Positions 394-52,000 of a stretch of 64,000 nucleotides of DNA are shown in pieces (positions within the stretch are counted from its first letter, which is position 1; each line of letters begins with the position of its first letter). The translations under genes and the position numbers were made by a program. The stretch is from Plumapathes pennacea. Lineage: Eukaryota > Cnidaria > Anthozoa > Antipatharia > Myriopathidae. The stretch covers positions 15,867,591 through 15,931,590 of the forward strand of contig OZ038469.1 in NCBI GenBank assembly GCA_964036295.1. The letters are read 5' to 3'. The notes under the pieces are model-generated. The model was not told where the DNA came from and made no database searches. It was given only the letters and a program-made list of their open reading frames with translations.

Positions 394-3300
394 TGTAGCA
401 CATCTCCACGTTCCTCCAGGTAACAGATAACAAAGAAGAAGACAAAATAGAGACATGCCACTGATTTTGGCAACAGGGAACGAGTGAATAGTCACTGAAC
501 AGACTTATCCACTAGCAAGGTTGCCAAAACTACAAATGCAATGCAATATTTACCTTAGACAAAAATCTTGCATATCTGATGGCGTAAAATGAGCTAACTT
601 CATGGTCTGACGTTCCCTGGATGGCCTCCTCATACAACTGTGCAGTCATGTCCAGCTCCCCAAGCCGCCGTACTACATTGATTCTGCGTAGCTTTACAAG
701 TATTTGACCAGGTACAGCTGCATCTAGATCAGCCAGGATTTGGCTGGCTTTTGTGGCATTTCCTGACATAGACAGAGAAAGTTTACAATATTAGTTTTAA
801 AGGTCATACTTCTCTGTGAATGATTAACTCAGCTCTTACCACGCTCCTCTTCAAATGCAGCCCATGCCAAATGAATGTTAGGCTTCCTTGGGAGGTGAAT
901 AGTACAAGCCCTCTCATACACACGACGACACCCTTCCACACTACAATCTTCCATGTAGGATGCAAATCGCTGCCAGAAGTCTTCATACAATGCACATGCA
1001 ATGACACATCTCTCAAACAATGTAACAACCCTCTCATGGCTTCCATTTGCTATTTCAAAATCAAGATAGTCTCTCCAGTTTTTCAGCTGCATGCGTTCCA
1101 AGGGTTTTACATGGAAATATGGTCTTTTGACTGCCTCTTCAAAAGTCCAGCGCTTTCTAACTTCCTCTTCAAGTGCCGTGAACAGAGCAGTCCTAGCTGC
1201 AATAACTTTTTCTCTTATTGCAACTGACTCAACATCATTCTGTCAAAAAGAGAACAGGTATCAGTTTATGTGAAACTTCTGATAACTGAAACTCCACAGG
1301 GCAAAAACCTTTCCATTCTTTAAGGGAGAATAATTTTTTATACTAATAATATTGAAAAAAAAAAAAATTGTTTCCAGGGCTAATCAGCTTCAATATTCAC
1401 CTTCACTTTTTCACCAGAAGTACGCCCTACAGATTGGTGATTTGCTCAAACAAAAGCCGATTAGACTATCACTCCTCACTACATCACTCAAAACATATCT
1501 TGTTTAATGGTTGGGAGAAACTGTTTTATAAAAATCATGTACCACCATAATATAAGGCAAGCCATGCATTTAGAAACTCAGCAGCTGAGAAAATCATGCA
1601 AACTACCAGCTAACCGTGAGTGACTGTGCCGGCATAGCTTCCTCTTCTCCTGGTGCTACGAGGCTTTCAGTGACTTCTACTGGTGTCGAACTCGCTTCTT
1701 CTAAACCTACCACACCAAAACATGAGCAGGAAAAGTGTTCAGAAACAAGATGCAAGTGGTTGGATTAATCAAACAGTACTGGAAACACATCCAAAGCAAT
1801 CCCACAGTTTGGCTCTCAAAAAATTTGAAAGGTTTGACATGTGCATCAGCCTATTCAGTGGATGATTTTAAGGATATACACATTTAAAAGCAACACAAAG
1901 TGGCATCAATTTATTAGAAAATTATTTTAAAATTTAGGTTTTGCAAGGTGAATAGGCAAGGTGTACAGCAATCTCTATGACAACTTGTTTTACTATTGTG
2001 TTCAATCAATCTTCACCAGAGCAGCTGCACTGTTATAAAAATATCTTTTCTTGCTCAAGATTTTAGATTTTGTGATCCTTACCTGGGGGTGCTGTGCTGG
2101 CAACACTAACAAGCGGCTCAGCTTCCGCTGATGTTACACCAGGGGGAGCAGCTGCAACTTCCGCCCTGAGCTTGAGGAGTTCCTCTGTGGACAGAACGTC
2201 TGATACCGGGTTGGAATTGATGTGTTCCTTGAATCTTCAAAGAGTCAGATAATTCAAGTTAAAATAAAATCTCTAACAAAATATTGTCTGGTTACAATAA
2301 TAAAATGGGATGTACTTACCTTTTCCATCATTACCTAACACTAATTCCAGAAATAATTATGTACTATCTCCATATTATTCTTCCACTGTAATCACAGACA
2401 AGAAAGAATAAAACAAAGAAGAGATAGGCCGATACTTTTGGCAACAGGGAACGAGTGAATAGTCACTGAACAGACTTTATTCACTAGCGTGGTTGCCATT
2501 ATAAATATATACATCTGACAACAAGGGTTTCAGGACTGAATGGTACAAGTACTGTACCATGAAAACTCAACCAGGGATTTCTCACATAATTAGTACAAGG
2601 CAATAATTAGGTTCGGTGATAAATGGTTTCTCAAATCCCCAAGATGACAAAAGTGTGAAAGAGTGGTGGTTATTGTAGCTATTGTATGTGTGAAGAGTGA
2701 GAAGTGTGTGTGAATGTAAGGCACATCACAGTCTTGTGTACTTGTTCTTCAGTGAACAAGGCTTACTTTTCGAAATGTTGATTGTAGTGCTGGGTTGGTA
2801 TGGTAAAGACCCTGTCATACAGCTTAGTTACTCTCTGTAATTCTCCCTGGCTTTTCTCCCAGTCAACATATGCCTCCCAGAGTTTGTCTGATCTGAATTC
2901 TTCACCGGCTGCAAGTACTGCTCCCTCAAACAAACTGCCATCGGGAGACAAAAAAAGGAAAAAAACAGGAAGAGTTATGACGACTCAGTATCCTTGGCAT
3001 CCTTGCAAAAATATCACCCAACACAGCTCTGATCTCTCTGCTGCGATTTTAATTCAGGACTAGAGAAAGCAAGTACCTTTCTTGATTTAGTATGTACCCA
3101 CTCTCCAGGCAATCATGGGTACATTGCTATGCAATGCACTACGCACTGATAAGGAATGGTGAATGTGACAAAAACAATGCTGGGGTTAGAACACGAAAAG
3201 CAAAAAAATTCACAAAATTCAGGACTTCAACGAGTAAGGTCTTATGAACAAACGCTCACTGGAAGTGTCCTGTGCCTTGAAAGTTTTATTGCCATCTGAT

Positions 3301-4525
3301 TGGCGACTTTCCTGGAGGATAGAACACATGTGTTAGTAGGACACTCCCACACCAAATTTACCTGCGCATCACTTGAGGGCCATCAGGTTGGCCCTTGGTA
3401 GTTTGAGAAGCAAAATTCAGATAATGTACCCACAAATCCACACTAAGTGGGATAGCTGCCACACCTCTCTCGAACACCTAAACAGAAAAAAGAAAAAAAG
3501 TTCCACTCAAAAGAAGAATTCCAGAAACCTTCAGAGGAGTGGAGACACAAAAAGGAGCACTTGCAAGATGCCAGTCTTTCAGATGAGACAGACAGAAGCA
3601 TCAACTCAAAAATGGCCCAGAATGCACCTGACAGAAGCGAGGTTCTTTACTGCCACCAAGGGATATATTTCTCACCTCTTTTGCTTTGTCCGTGTTCCCA
3701 TTTTTTCGTTCAAGATCAGCATACTTTTTCCAGTAGCCGTAACAGTACGGATAACGTTTAAAAAACGCATCAAACGCCTTACGAGCGGAGGCAAGCTTAT
3801 TCTACAGAAAGAAAACAAAGAACCAACCGTTAGAACTCGTCGACCAGACTGAACAAACGACAAATATTCAGGTGACCATTGAAATAAAAATCATCATAAA
3901 CCTTCCTCTATACATACATGTACGCTTTCAATACGAAGTTAGGTACCCTTAGCTAACCCTGGCCTGGGTAAAAATGAAGCAATGTCAGACAAGTTAAAAA
4001 TCGAATCGATCAAGCAGTCTTCGAAGATACAAATGTTCACAGGTTCGTTGATAAAGTCATACAACACGAAAAAATATGCAATAAACACCTCTTGCTCCAC
4101 GAACTGCAACAAATACGTCCAACTGGTGAAGTCTGAGGGATTTTCCTTGACTGCTTTCCAGTATTTCAATTCTTGTTCGTTTATGACCTGCCCCTCGCTC
4201 GGGGAATCTTCTGGCTTCCCATTAGACTCGTCCGCTGCATTTGATGTGTCAACCAAAGTAATAACAGTATGAGTCTCAGCTTTGCCGTCTAAAAAAGAAA
4301 AAGAGATGGATGAGCTAAAACTGAAGGTGTACTCACAACGAACGTGACTTCGAGCACATGACATTATTCGGGGGAGTTGGAGCGAATCATTTCAAAACTT
4401 GTCAAATTAAGGTGCATGCTGTTCTGTCTCTTCCATGGTATTAAAGGATAGGACTGTATTACAAGGATGGAAAAGATTAACACTAAAACATTGAGCTCAC
4501 CATCCACTTCTGCCACCGACGCCAT
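90..4525 (-). CDS. PRPF39: Pre-mRNA-processing factor 39 (PRPF39), 5' ten exons, C-terminus beyond left edge
   Basis: PRPF39 is a U1 snRNP-associated nuclear splicing factor built of HAT (half-a-TPR) helical repeats that helps 5' splice-site recognition. Ten exons join in phase (4501-4525, 4089-4288, 3676-3801, 3362-3477, 2767-2934, 2083-2234, 1615-1700, 840-1239, 554-762, 90-149) to give 514 in-frame codons. After a short acidic N-terminus, HAT signatures follow: [58 protein letters not shown], then a 133-codon exon with [22 protein letters not shown] and a [20 protein letters not shown] segment. These match the animal PRPF39 order. The exon at 1615-1700 codes for a low-complexity acidic linker and is least certain; its donor is GTTAGC. 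The start ATG at 4525 is the one following the promoter; an in-frame ATG further upstream is possible. The last exons lie left of base 90. Confidence 0.93.
363..389 (+). repeat. Poly(A) tract in a PRPF39 intron
   Basis: 27 consecutive A (poly(T) on the gene's strand), about 75 bp upstream of the short dispersed element. Confidence 0.9.
465..529 (+). repeat. Short dispersed element GGCAAC...GTTGCC, copy 2
   Basis: TTTTGGCAACAGGGAACGAG through TCACTGAACAGACTTATCC to AAGGTTGCCAAAA has inverted ends. Shared upstream sequence (GAGACATGCC versus GAGATAGGCC) suggests the repeat extends left. It lies between PRPF39 exons 9 and 10. Confidence 0.75.
1383..1545 (-). mobile_element. CACTCCCAA MITE family, decayed copy in PRPF39 intron
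   Basis: TTCACCAGAAGTACGCCCTA, TAGACTATCACTCCTCACTA and CATCACTCAAAACATATC with TGGTTGGGAGAAACTG follow the order of the inverted copy at 43700-43897, with more divergence. Confidence 0.6.
2436..2497 (+). repeat. Short dispersed element GGCAAC...GTTGCC, copy 3
   Basis: The same 60-bp sequence as copy 2 with nearly full identity, in the PRPF39 intron between exons 5 and 6. All three copies are in the same orientation within one gene. Confidence 0.78.
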
Positions 4526-18313: not shown

Positions 18314-45628
<27,315 letters not shown>

Positions 45629-45629
<1 letters not shown>

Positions 45630-45826
45630 GCCGTTCACTCCCAAACTCATAATGTAGAAATTCTCCCGATTATTTAAGAGAAAATATATGAGTAATCTGG
45701 TAAGAATCATTGATAGTTTAGTCAGCTTTGTCTGAATCCAAATTCTCCATACTGTGTGAAATATATGTCTGCGAGAGATTGAAAGAGAAAATTGAAGTTG
45801 ATCACTCTTGAGAGTTACAGGGATAA
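45629..45826 (+). mobile_element. CACTCCCAA MITE family copy at the KNTC1 stop codon
   Basis: The element begins AGCCGTTCACTCCCAAACTC, overlapping or abutting the TAA stop at 45627-45629, and ends GATCACTCTTGAGAGTTACA. It therefore forms the first 200 bp of the KNTC1 3' UTR. Confidence 0.78.
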
Positions 45827-45963: not shown

Positions 45964-45969
45964 AATAAA
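45964..45969 (+). terminator. AATAAA poly(A) signal for KNTC1
   Basis: A canonical hexamer 335 bp after the stop codon and before the satellite array. It is the first AATAAA downstream of the gene on this strand. Confidence 0.6.
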
Positions 45970-46139
45970 CGAACTGAACTAACTGTGTTGCTAATTATGA
46001 GTACGTTGAGTATAAATATCTAAATTTAGGAGGAGTAAAAGTAAACAGTGAAGTATCTTTATTTATACACAGTAAGTACATAGTAAGTAGTTTAACATAG
46101 CTTGCACAAAGGAGACTCAAGTTTTACGTTATTTTTCTC

Positions 46140-48430
46140 CTATATCTCATCAACGGCTGAAATAAAATATGACAAACGTATTCTAAAAAGTCTCGTTATA
46201 GTCCTAGGAACGTTTCCTGGAAGTTTCGAAAGTTTTCAATTTTTGGCCAAAATCGGCCATTTTTGACAAAAACAATGGACTATAGCCTTAGTATGTTTCA
46301 AGAAATGGTCATTTTTGGGCTAGTCTCAGAATCGCATAATATGTTAAGGAATCATTCCAAGGACTATAACGACGATTTTAATCTATAATGTTTGATATTT
46401 TATTTAACAGATCCCCAGAAATTAGAGCAAAATCATCGACTAAAATGTCACACTTTAAACAAAGGAGCCTAATTTGATCAAATTTGTTGTTATATCTCGT
46501 CAACGGCTGAAGATGGATAAAGCAAATGTATTGTAGAAAGTCTTCTTATAATCCAAGGAAAGTTTCCTGAAAGTTTCAAGAGTTTTCAACTTTTGGCCAA
46601 AATCGGCAAAAAACCCTGTGCTATAGCCTTAGTATTTTGTCAAAATTCCAAGATTTTTCAACCATCTCAGAATCGCATCAAATTTTCAGGAAACATTGCC
46701 TGGACTACGCCGACGGTTTTTGCATAGTTTTTGTAAACTTTTAGCGCGCGCGTCGTGAGAAATTAGAGCAAATTACAGCAAATCATGCACTAATTAATTC
46801 ATCACACCTTTGGAGTTAAGCTGCTATATCTCGGCAACGGATCAAGATAGATATAGCAAATGTATTGCAAAAAGTCTTGTTATAGTCCAAGGAAGTTTTC
46901 TGAAAGTTTCAAGAGTTTTCAACTTTTGGCCAAAATCGGCAAAAAACCCTGTGCTATAGCCTTAGTATTTTGTCAAAATTCCAAGATTTTTCAACCATCT
47001 CAGAATCGCATCAAATTTTCAGGAAACATTGCCTGGACTACGCCGACGGTTTTTGCATAGTTTTTGTAAACTTTTAGCGCGCGCGTCGTGAGAAATTAGA
47101 GCAAATTACAGCAAATCATGCACTAATTAATTCATCACACCTTTGGAGTTAAGCTGCTATATCTCGGCAACGGATCAAGATAGATATAGCAAATGTATTG
47201 CAAAAAGTCTTGTTATAGTCCAAGGAAGGTTTCCTGAAAGTTTCAAGAGTTTTCAACTTTTGGCCAAAATCGGCAAAAAACCCTGTGCTATAGCCTTAGT
47301 ATTTTGTCAAAATTCCAAGATTTTTCAACCATCTCAGAATCGCATCAAATTTTCAGGAAACATTGCCTGGACTACGCCGACGGTTTTTGCATAGTTTTTG
47401 TAAACTTTTAGCGCGCGCGTCGTGAGAAATTAGAGCAAACTACAGCAAATCATGCACTAATTAATTCATCACACCTTTGGAGTTAAGCTGCTATATCTCG
47501 GCAACGGATCAAGATAGATAAAACAAATGTATTGCAAAAAGTCTTGTTATAGTCCAAGGAAGGTTTCCTGAAAGTTTCAAGAGTTTTCAACTTTTGGCCA
47601 AAATCGGCAAAAAACCCTGTGCTATAGCCTTAGTATTTTGTCAAAATTCCAAGATTTTTCAACCATCTCAGAATCGCATCAAATTTTCAGGAAACATTGC
47701 CTGGACTACGCCGACGGTTTTTGCATAGTTTTTGTAAACTTTTAGCGCGCGCGTCGTGAGAAATTAGAGCAAATTACAGCAAATCATGCACTAATTAATT
47801 CATCACACCTTTGGAGTTAAGCTGCTATATCTCGGCAACGGATCAAGATAGATAAAGCAAATGTATTGCAAAAAGTCTTGTTATAGTCCAAGGAAGGTTT
47901 CCTGAAAGTTTCAAGAGTTTTCAACTTTTGGCCAAAATCGGCAAAAAACCCTGTGCTATAGCCTTAGTATTTTGTGAAAATTCCAATATTTTTGACCATA
48001 TCAGAATCGCATGAAACTTTCAGGAATCGTTCCTGGGACTATGCCGACGTTTTCTGCATAGTTTTTGTAAACTTTTAGCCTGCGCGTCGTGAGAAATTAG
48101 AGCAAATTAGAGCAAATCAGCGACTAATTAAAACATCACACCTTTCAAAGTTTTAAGCGGCTTTGCTGCTATATCTCGCCAACGGATGAAGATACATAAA
48201 GCAAATGTACTGCGGAAAGTCTTCTTATTGTCCCAGGAAGGTTTCCTAGAAGTTCCAAGAGTTTTCATTTTTTGGCCAAAATCGGCAAAAAACCATGGCC
48301 TTAGTATTTTGTGAAAATACGGTCATTTTTTAACCATCTCAGAATCGCATGAAACGTTCAGGAAACCTTCCTGGGACTATGCCGACGGAGGTGGAGGGGT
48401 TTCCTCATAATGTTGAGAATTTTAAATTTT
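46140..48430 (+). repeat. Satellite array, about 333-bp period, seven units
   Basis: Units start at the word TATATCTCG(G/T)CAACGG near 46140, 46490, 46824, 47157, 47491, 47824 and 48169 (spacings 350, 334, 333, 334, 333, 345). The four central units are nearly identical, while the outer ones are diverged and the last breaks off around 48400-48430. Every unit contains the dyad AGTCCAAGGAAGGTTTCCTG ... CAGGAAACATTGCCTGGACT about 95 bp apart, plus TTTTGGCCAAAA. Open frames of 66-83 codons recur with the period and are not considered genes. Confidence 0.93.
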
Positions 48431-48577
48431 TGGCCAAAATGTGCTCCCGATTGCCCGATTTTCATTCCCGATTGCATACTTTAATTTTTTTGCTGCGGCA
48501 GGGTCTGGGTCGGGAGTCAACCGGACATGCGCACTCGGCACTATAAAAAGCTTAACAAATAACAATTCTTTATGTTG

Positions 48578-48583
48578 TTTATT
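48578..48583 (-). terminator. AATAAA poly(A) signal for the coiled-coil gene
   Basis: TTTATT on the plus strand, 438 bp past the minus-strand stop at 49021 and just outside the satellite array. Confidence 0.5.
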
Positions 48584-49020: not shown

Positions 49021-52000
49021 TCACATCACCGCACAAAACGAGCTGATGGTATGTTCCCGCCCTTGTTTGTGTCTACCGTCCCCCTCTTCCTTGCCATTCT
49101 TCTTAGAAACCCTCGCGTTCGTTTCCCTTGTGCTCCTGCCCGAAGCTGAACTTGTCGACGCCTTCGTTCCCAGGGAATCGTCAGACGGGATCCGTGGGAG
49201 CCTGGGTTGAGAAGAGATGGAAGATGACCCACAGGGAACTGAGACCCGACTGGATCTCGGGATGGGACGCAGTCCCCGTGCGTTACGAATGTCTACCGAG
49301 GTTCGTTGCATTATCGTTTCGACGGACGGCGACAACGACTCTGTTCCGAGTTCCGCGGTTTTCCTTGCCAGGTCTAGATGTGTGTCCAAGTGTTTGACTT
49401 TCTGCTGGAGCCGCTTGTTCTCATTTTCAGAGACATCAAACTGTCAGAATAAAACGCATACATACATACATCACATTCCATACATACATCACATTCCATA
49501 CATACATCACATTCCAAAGTGGACAGGTTTGTTACCAGAATGTATACACCAAAATAATATAGAGCACAAAGTATCCTGGCCATCCTAACCCTTGGAGTCA
49601 GAAAAGTCTTTCTAAAATTAGAATCACGGTGAGGGAGGGACCGAGAAAAGACATTCTTGACGTCACTTCCGCTGGTCAGCGTTCACCGCCATTACTGTCA
49701 ACTCAAAGTGAAATTTCACAAATATGCAAAACGTGTTTCAAATTACCTATTATTTTTGTCTGTTAACCCTTTCATTCGTAAGCTCAAAATGTAGATTACC
49801 TTAACCTCATTATTATTTGTTACTCCACTTCTTGCCAAATGTACGTGAACTTTTAACCCGTTCACTCCCAAGCTCAAAATCCAGATTCTCTCAACTGCTT
49901 AAGAAGAAAATGTATGGGTAATGCAGTGAGAATTTATAGTTTGATCAGCTTTTATCTGAGCGAGGGATAAAAAGCCAGGTTATCCCAACTGCACAATATA
50001 TCTCCGGTGAGAAAACGAAAGAGTAAAAATTGAAGTTGATTACCCTTGGGAGTGGAAGGGCTAAAAAACTACAACTGCACCTTGCTTCGCAGATCAGCGA
50101 GCTCTTCATCTTTGGACTCGCACGCCTTTCGCATAGTAAAAAGTTCTTCCAGGAGCTGGCGATTCTGTGTTTTGAGTTCCTCGATCCTCATATCCATGCC
50201 CCTGCCAACGGTACTAACTCGACTCGCGCTCCTGCAACAACCAAGCAAACATGGACACTCAGTTTCTGAACGCTGCAACCGCGCGCTGCTTATAACGAAT
50301 AACACTTTTCACAAACAAACCTTTGCCGTGAGTATGACGGAGGAATGGCGACTGGGTCTTCGTCGTCTTTGTATTGCTTCAGTTTATTCTCCAGGTGTTC
50401 TTTTCTCGCTTCCAGCTCCTTTGCGAGACAATCCAGCTCCTGCAAAGACCGCCATTATCATCATCATAATCATTATCATCGTCTGACCATCACCAATATC
50501 AGCGTCATCACTGCTATCATCATCAACGTCATCATCGCCATCACCATTATCATCATCACCGTCGCCATCATCACCATCACCATCGCCATCATCATCATCA
50601 CCATCAACAACATCATCATCACCATCAACAACATTATCATCATCACCATCAACAACATCATCATCATCACCACCAACAACATCATCATCATCACCGTCAT
50701 CATCATCATCATCATTATCGCCATCTTAATCATCACCTCCATCACCATCACCTTCATCATCATCACCATCGTCACCACCATCATCACCACCGTTGACTTA
50801 TCTTCATCACCATCATCATCACCACCGTCACCACCGTTGACTTATCTTCATCATCACCATCATCACCACCGTTGACTTATCTTCATCATCACCATCGTCA
50901 CCACCATCATCACCACCGTTGACTTATCTTCATCACCATAATGATCGCCGTCGCCATCACAATGAGCAGCAACATTTCGTTCAAGGTTAGATAGTGATCT
51001 GTCATTTCAATAATAACGCCAACTAAATTCATGTGTCCTTGTCACGACCAGCCTTGCATTCAAGCTGTACTTACGCCTTGTAAGATATTCAGGTCCTCCT
51101 CTTTGCTGTTCAACACATTGTGTCTTCGGTTCAAGTATTCTTCATAATCAAGAACCTACAGAAACAAGCAATACAAAGATTTTACTTCCCGGCCTATAAA
51201 CATTCCTAGACTCAAGTTTGTACTCGACAAAAATGGTGAGTGGTGAGTGTGAATCTAACCTCGTTTTCCTGTTCGAGAGCTTGTTCCTTTCGATGTACCA
51301 GTTCCTCCTCTTGTTTCGATATCAACGCCTAAAATTCAGGTATCAAATAAGCAACAGGTTTAGTCCAGGAAAAAAAATAGAACTGACTTATAACAGCACT
51401 GTAAACACTGTACATTAGAATGTAATCATTGAGAGCTTTCATGTGAGTGGTCACACGTCTAGCTTTCATTTGACAGTTAAGCTTTGGATGTTCCTATGTG
51501 TTGCGCGTTAAACAAATCTAAATCCTACTTTCTCACCTCATGTTCTCGATATCTCTCCCTTCTCTCTACCAGCTTCTTTTCATTCCGGAATTCTTGCAGC
51601 TCCTCTTCAAACCTCCTCCTACAAAGAAAGCAAAAGAAAAGTTCAATGGCACCGCGCAATAGAGTTCGTTGTCATTGCTATCTAAATTTTTACCTCGTTC
51701 ACAAGCTCTGGTTTATTTTTGTGTCCACAATTTGTTATAGTAAATGTGTTGAAATAAAATAATCTATACTGGAGTAACGAGTCCTAGATTTGAGTTTTTT
51801 TGGATTTCTTCAGGTTTTGCAAGCGTTGAACAAACTACGAAACTTTGCACGCAGTTTCGTCCAAGGGTTGCCGATTCAAAGACAGGTGATCGTACGCCGG
51901 TTGAAAACCGTATTTCCGTGGTGTCTAGTTTAATAAGCCAGACTTCAGCATTCTGTAGAGAGAGAAGCCAAGTTGTGTCCCAGTATTTGCGAACGTTCCT

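Follow-up and report, generated by a model that had tools for sequence, protein, structure and literature searches.

Genomic context and layout of the array

The window analysed here is a stretch of 64 kb (C8:15867591-15931590) from an assembly of 290 Mb in 24 contigs, and within it a tandem array occupies the space between the 3' end of KNTC1 and an open frame on the minus strand that ends at 49021. The identification of KNTC1, proposed in an earlier note on this DNA, is upheld by a Pfam Rod_C match (E 1.2e-13, 42195-42377, plus strand), and the last open frame of the gene ends at 45629. The minus-strand frame gave a weak match to NUSAP (E 0.013), which lies under the curated cut-off. The array is flanked by AATAAA at 45964 and by TTTATT, the minus-strand form, at 48578, so that poly(A) signals do lie outside it as had been claimed, although other such hexamers occur inside, for example AATAAA at 46161. 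Copies of a dispersed repeat of about 200 bp lie on both sides of the array (43714-43895, 45625-45826 and 49852-50064); the copy at 45625 begins at the stop codon of KNTC1, and therefore the 3' end of this gene seems to lie in a repeat. Two more arrays, picked among the flanks of 20 loci, are situated 3' of gene fragments, one of a GPCR (L031) and one of a dynein C terminus (L049).

The array consists of seven head-to-tail units on the plus strand (46136-48390) with steps of 333-350 bp, the number of units given earlier. Tandem Repeats Finder reported a period of 334, 5.7 copies and 94% matches for 46491-48388, and the repeat and profile searches added unit 1 (start 46136-46140) and a truncated unit 7 (end 48388-48390). 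Unit 1 (46136-46485) has a step of 350 bp and is nearest to subfamily C, the long-loop type among the three subfamilies (A, B and C) described below. Unit 2 (46486-46819) has a diverged 5' part and follows a private A-like variant from about 46567 onwards. Units 3 (46820-47152), 4 (47153-47486, which served as search query) and 5 (47487-47820) form a homogenised core, the left arm of the dyad carrying a 1-bp deletion in unit 3. Unit 6 (47821-48164) is a mosaic, with the local core variant in its first half and a different second half, and the truncated unit 7 (48165-48390) is nearest to subfamily B. Beyond it lies an isolated partial motif (48398-48440, plus strand), an eighth TTTTGGCCAAAA box with its left flank, which matches at 79% and was found by the profile searches with E-values of 0.0095 and 0.00045.

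The GC content of the array is 0.370, as compared with 0.410 for the whole window. The observed/expected ratio of CpG is 1.00 in the array (46136-48440) and 0.79 in the window, and no CpG depletion is thus seen in the array. Stop-to-stop frames within the array reach only 60-87 aa and the steps of 333/334 bp shift the frame from one unit to the next, which makes a coding repeat unlikely.

Local homogenisation and mosaic units

The earlier note described four nearly identical central units between diverged outer ones. A nearly identical tract of about 1.4 kb (46567-47975, plus strand) is indeed present, but the positions of the mismatches place its breakpoints inside units 2 and 6. All 12 mismatches between units 2 and 3 fall within unit positions 2-81; units 3 and 4 differ by 2 mismatches and one 1-bp gap, and units 4 and 5 by 3 mismatches, units 3-5 being 98-100% alike in each quarter. 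Unit 6 differs from unit 5 at a single position ahead of 156 and at 25 positions from there on.

Nor are the outer units simply decayed or older copies of the core, as unit 1 is C-like, unit 7 is B-like and unit 6 departs at about position 156. The identities of the first three quarters of unit 1 are 0.85, 0.82 and 0.75 to subfamily C and 0.79, 0.76 and 0.71 to A, and its last quarter reaches 0.49-0.57 to all references. Those of the four quarters of unit 7 are 0.96, 0.94, 0.90 and 0.57 to B and 0.88, 0.91, 0.86 and 0.57 to A, and its positions 1-224 are 90-92% identical to copies on contigs C5 and C2. The recent unequal exchange and the satellite nature suggested before are both supported; breakpoints inside units would be the mark of unequal exchange or of conversion.

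To each of the 20 A loci, which represent 14 arrays, the window consensus shows 93-95% identity, and it clusters with none of them within 5%, as local homogenisation would lead one to expect; the window array is therefore a private A-like variant. Units are more alike within arrays than between them, as in concerted evolution, though not universally among the A loci: 12 of the 20 (8 of the 14 arrays) lie within 3% of each other, and local distinctness is not the rule.

Abundance, subfamilies and dispersal

The whole-genome search with the unit, which the earlier note had proposed, gave at least 366 matches for the central unit, at least 182 for the first and at least 314 for the last, and those listed fall on contigs C1-C10, that is, related arrays are present on nine contigs besides C8 among the matches listed. 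The exact unit 20-mer CTGAAAGTTTCAAGAGTTTT has 9,966 sites in the genome (5,315 forward and 4,651 reverse), with 0 for its reversed control, and the 21-mer CCTAAAAGTTTCAAGAGTTTT of subfamily B has 660 (399 forward and 261 reverse), again with 0 for the control. Both occupy the same unit position and together account for 10,626 sites; if each site is one unit of 334 bp, the satellite amounts to about 3.5 Mb or about 1.2% of the assembly. Among extracted units, CTGAAAGTTTCAAGAGTTTT is present in 247 of 308 A, 15 of 30 C, none of 29 B and 5 of 6 window units, and CCTAAAAGTTTCAAGAGTTTT in 24 of 29 B units. Since these words are missing from part of the extracted units, the true number of units is probably higher than 10,626.

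From 41 loci (35 arrays), 373 near-full units were extracted, these being the profile matches that covered more than 90% of the model (373 of 865; the other 492 include partial matches and reverse-strand matches due to self-symmetry). The loci were taken from the top-scoring matches and not at random, the B and C loci comprise about 1.1-1.25 kb each, and the 20 A loci stand for 14 arrays, six of which contributed both of their ends. Mean identity within loci ranges from 0.77 to 0.99 and is lowered in loci that mix diverged or opposite units, among them L031, L032, L034, L047, L053 and the window. Locus consensuses fall into subfamily A (20 loci and the window), B (10 loci) and C (10 loci); B is 83-88% and C 65-69% identical to the window consensus. 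The monomer is about 334 bp long in A, about 335 bp in B and about 345-381 bp in C, and the linker, about 50 bp long in both A and B, is longer in C (about 60-95 bp). The family thus consists of head-to-tail tandem units at high copy number, as is characteristic of satellite DNA.

Clear flips of orientation were found in 3 of the 14 A arrays (L033, L042 and L045, each read in part), which represents a macro-dyad feature. The flips form large inverted repeats, at about 2075-2079 in L042, about 4474-4477 in L033, and about 3931 and 4486-4544 in L045, and diverged opposite-strand pieces adjoin L034, L044 and L047. A long array of the same satellite lies near the start of contig C1 (C1:7772-72416), in which CTGAAAGTTTCAAGAGTTTT and B-type CCTAAAAGTTTCAAGAGTTTT units are intermixed and CTGAAAGTTTCAAGAGTTTT sites reach at least 48952 among the matches listed. 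The first 500 bases of C1 read N, no telomere repeat is present in its last 500 bases, and C8:1-500 consists of the telomere repeat (CCCTAA). Despite the array at C1:7772, arrays are interstitial on many contigs and confinement to subtelomeric regions is not claimed. No exact match was found in viral or prokaryote contigs and none in plasmids, and no description of this satellite family was recognised by a word search of a partial literature collection, in which sequences are not searchable.

A palindrome covering nearly the whole unit

The earlier note had reported an inverted repeat of about 27 bp in every unit. An inverted repeat was found in all seven, but the exact pair of arms described there occurs only in units 4 and 5, the left arm being exact in units 4-6 and the right arm in units 2-5. 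The two 20-mers given for these arms agree at 17 of their 20 positions, with a separation of 117 bp; the inverted-repeat search returned arms of 54 nt for unit 4 (47199-47252, plus strand, and 47338-47391, minus strand), 72% complementary and 85 nt apart. Unit 5 has the same values (54 nt, 72%), and the arms measure 33 nt in unit 1 (82% complementary), 37 nt in unit 2 (76%), 54 nt in unit 6 (76%) and 38 nt in unit 7 (79%). In unit 3, with its 1-bp deletion in the left arm, the dyad was seen as a reverse-strand profile match. Near the symmetry centre of unit 4 lies GCTATAGC (47287-47294), which is exact in units 2-6 and absent in its exact form from units 1 and 7. The box TTTTGGCCAAAA is carried by all seven window units and by the partial motif, but it is not fixed across the family, being present in 24 of the 41 locus consensuses (15 of 20 in A, 7 of 10 in B and 1 of 10 in C, plus the window).

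The 27-bp dyad is the best-kept core of a palindrome that extends over about 284 of the roughly 334 bp. This is clearest in subfamily C, the consensus of which aligns with its own reverse complement over positions 4-287 with 102 of 140 pairs Watson-Crick (73%) and a score of 300, as compared with 123 ± 11 and a maximum of 156 in 200 mononucleotide shuffles. The corresponding scores are 202 for A, 192 for B and 184 for the window, against shuffle maxima of 176, 156 and 160, with Watson-Crick pairs at 90 of 133, 91 of 134 and 88 of 133 aligned positions; transferred from the window consensus to unit 4, the palindrome spans 47153-47436. Taken singly, the ten C locus consensuses are 61-68% paired on the same scheme, and the higher value of 73% for their joint consensus, on which that scheme was chosen, fits a more symmetric ancestor. 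The linker has no symmetry in B and C (scores of 19 and 21 against shuffle means of 21.8 and 24.0) and a weak one in A (36 against 27.0, sd 5.7); the profile trims the unit ends, so that these scores cover the consensus part of the linker and omit up to several tens of bases, most in C. The monomer is accordingly a palindromic building block, as in satellites derived from MITE or foldback elements.

Conservation and covariation of the dyad

Pairing was followed in an alignment of 48 units from 42 loci (36 arrays), comprising the 7 window units, 40 units of the other loci and one of L075. Standard pairs are formed in 79.7% of the cells of the 42-pair core and in 34-53% when the arms are slid by 1-3 columns, and in 63.5% against 35-50% for the whole dyad of 140 pairs; the scheme was derived from ten of the 48 sequences and the excess over the slid versions is partly built in. 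The central helix of 4 pairs at GCTATAGC is paired in 97.3% of cells. The arms of the core stem are conserved, with 20-column means of 0.83-0.94 against 0.39-0.84 elsewhere in 15 consensuses, and the mean for the block with TATATCTCG is 0.84. The folding of one unit, another check proposed in the earlier note, is better than that of 100 of 100 shuffles for both strands as RNA (z of -2.80 and -2.62) and as DNA (-2.97).

Compensatory changes were not detected above expectation in this alignment. Covariation of the core stem is 0.066, equal to the shuffled value of 0.066 (246 of 500 shuffles at least as high), and that of the whole dyad is 0.048 against 0.048 (270 of 500). Two-sided changes occur at 4 core pairs with 3.7 expected and in 8 core cells with 5.9 expected (88 of 500), and at 23 pairs of the whole dyad with 25.8 expected. 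Covariation is higher in the true register than in the slid ones (core 0.066 against 0.027-0.053, whole dyad 0.048 against 0.028-0.039), which is to be expected because more cells pair there and the scheme derives from these sequences. Compensatory cells number 4 in the C consensuses, as compared with 145 that leave the pair unrestored (38 GU, 30 AC and 77 other). Over 133 dyad pairs, comparison of the window variant with the A consensus shows 9 pairs broken, 3 newly made and none compensated. Changes to GU occupy 30 positions and changes to AC 23 in C, and the numbers over all rows are 30 and 19; no conclusion is drawn from this slight preference for plus-strand wobble, as the sequences are related.

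A search with 4,227 Rfam models returned no family at threshold in the window array and six further loci, and no hammerhead ribozyme was found in them. Matches below threshold were MIR837, mir-1262 and an sRNA in the window array, and MIR8562 (best E 0.011), MIR2606, MIR821 and a snoRNA in the six other loci.

Flanks of the arrays

The flanks were compared for 20 array edges from 13 arrays, the window included. Only one pair, L035/L040, matches up to the array edge (724 bp at 81%), and a common carrier or a duplication would explain this shared flank. It has a relative in an element whose inverted repeats are about 1.26 kb long, and the single copy of this element that was read (L071) holds no satellite; a further full-length match of the flank lies at C11:2725397. 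The L071 copy (C1:20.02 Mb) has inverted repeats at 604-1863 and 3054-4286 that are 90% identical, as well as internal sub-repeats, and no open frame above 142 aa. Among the matches listed, about 40 are due to parts of this element, and several of these form inverted pairs with a spacing of about 3 kb. The flank common to L037 and L047 is a dispersed repeat of 1.1 kb with 83 matching pieces; hundreds of bases separate its start from the arrays, and none of its other positions falls on an array among the matches listed. Many pieces of this repeat (7654-8767 in L047) lie on C10, where five copies follow at steps of about 74-104 kb (C10:7.33-7.68 Mb). The repeat of about 200 bp seen beside KNTC1 occurs in 5 of the 20 flanks (both sides of the window array, L038, the left side of L047 and L050); its distance and orientation relative to the arrays vary, and it is therefore read as an unrelated dispersed repeat. 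None of the remaining flank matches is at an edge, and they represent dispersed repeats or diverged satellite. With a single edge pair among 20 edges and an element copy free of satellite, a transposon as carrier of the arrays was set aside, and so was a solo MITE, the sole apparent solo copy that was fetched (L075) being the end of a decayed array.

Discussion

The presented results indicate that the array beside KNTC1 is, with good probability, a short and locally homogenised member of an abundant, dispersed satellite superfamily that descends from a palindromic ancestor, and that no specific function is needed to account for it. The high copy number, the several subfamilies, the palindromy of nearly the whole unit, the lack of covariation between the arms and the mid-unit breakpoints of the window array are the observations on which this reading is built. 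In its tandem arrangement, copy number and concerted evolution the family agrees with satellite DNA, and it shares one feature with MITE/foldback satellites. The monomer may derive from a palindrome of about 284 bp, formerly closer to perfect symmetry, and a linker; this ancestor would have been amplified head to tail and seeded as arrays at many loci, and unequal crossing over or gene conversion would have kept the units of each array alike. Beside KNTC1, an A-like variant would have multiplied between one C-like and one B-like unit, within a gap between convergent genes that presumably tolerates extra DNA. The dyad recurs in each unit since it is inherited with the unit, and its repetition alone is no proof of selection.

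No parent element of the palindrome was found in the loci read, and three possible origins may be weighed. The first, a MITE or foldback element multiplied in tandem, is a claim about origin and compatible with the satellite reading; we give it somewhat less than an even chance. It draws on the near-full-unit palindrome next to a linker that is not clearly symmetric, as if host DNA had been co-amplified, on copies on at least ten contigs, on the flank shared by L035 and L040 up to the array edge, and on a precedent in Drosophila virilis (PMC4079207). The relic of a tandemly amplified MITE envisaged in the earlier note is to this extent compatible with the data, but the loci read hold no solo copy, the one candidate having turned out to be a decayed array end, and no common carrier. 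Furthermore, the edge-exact match is limited to one pair of edges, the element to which it belongs was seen without satellite, and the flank of L037 and L047 neither reaches the arrays nor coincides with them elsewhere among the matches listed. A rather doubtful option is that an ancestral repeat of about 167 bp was duplicated head to head and the inverted dimer then amplified. The halves of about 140 bp each with their tight centre and the relation 334 = 2 x 167 agree with such a dimer, 167 bp being the size of a nucleosomal unit, but the linker is asymmetric in B and C and only weakly symmetric in A, and no array of single half-units was noticed among the loci read. It is highly improbable that the arrays are the central repeats of a mobile element of the Helentron or the ribozyme-bearing (retrozyme) type. 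Dispersed short arrays in tandem are known to be carried by Helentrons (PMC7492417) and are reported for retrozymes (PMC7229834), and L035 and L040 do share an edge flank, but arrays with a common flanking element were not found, as no flank recurs at the edge itself in more than two of the 20 cases, and none of the 4,227 Rfam models gave a ribozyme match in the window array and six loci.

A different question is whether the dyad is kept for its pairing, as a source of cruciforms or hairpin RNAs or as a transcription barrier that separates the convergent genes, functions of which the barrier and the small-RNA hairpin had been suggested in the earlier note. The conserved core stem, the better folding of both strands than of shuffles, the weak matches to miRNA-type hairpins below threshold and the position between two gene 3' ends speak for it. 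The sequences, however, lend it no support: covariation does not exceed that of shuffles, unrestored cells far outnumber compensatory ones in the C consensuses, pairs broken in the window variant were never compensated, and the wobble lean to one strand is slight. Arms that mutate without compensating changes had been named beforehand as the sequence half of what would refute such a role, and this is the pattern observed; the array therefore reads as ordinary repetitive DNA and not as a selected hairpin, and a role through pairing is improbable. Conservation of the arms without covariation fits either a constraint on the sequence itself, such as protein binding, or slow drift combined with homogenisation. 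Against a purely neutral reading, the conserved blocks and the folding better than shuffles are compatible with a constraint of the former kind. The core arms, each of about 33 bp, could together with the GCTATAGC centre be bound by a protein specific for inverted sites in pairs, such as a domesticated transposase or a binder of the centromere type, a proposal that we consider a long shot. If it were true, the satellite would be kept through sequence-specific binding and not through pairing, which would explain conserved arms that lack covariation.

Taken as a dispersed satellite of palindromic ancestry, the family provides an example of a palindromic monomer that reaches about 1.2% of an animal genome, with some arrays beside genes, while its symmetry decays, and its three subfamilies offer a handle for following satellite turnover. 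It also calls for caution, since the recurrence of a dyad from unit to unit within an array adds no independent evidence of selection.

Several known systems resemble this satellite in part. Metazoan retrozymes are likewise repeated units in animal genomes, non-coding as the present ones probably are, but they contain hammerhead ribozymes (PMC7229834), none of which was detected here in the array and the six loci. In Crassostrea gigas, dispersed satellite-like repeats are carried by Helentrons (Cg_HINE) and form numerous arrays scattered over the genome, as here; in that case they are central repeats with defined flanks, whereas a single edge pair among 20 edges shares its flank in the present family (PMC7492417). 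The TIR-220 satellite of Drosophila virilis stems from the foldback element Tetris, so that an inverted-repeat element was the source of a building block from which satellite-like arrays grew. The parent element was identified in that species, whereas none was found here, and each monomer of the present satellite is itself a palindrome (PMC4079207). The abundant satellites of Tribolium madens have macro-dyad symmetries with inversion points inside arrays, comparable to those clearly seen in L033, L042 and L045, but they form megabase-sized, probably pericentromeric regions (PMC13081366). The satellite described here, in contrast, is arranged in arrays at many interstitial places, and its symmetry lies within each monomer.
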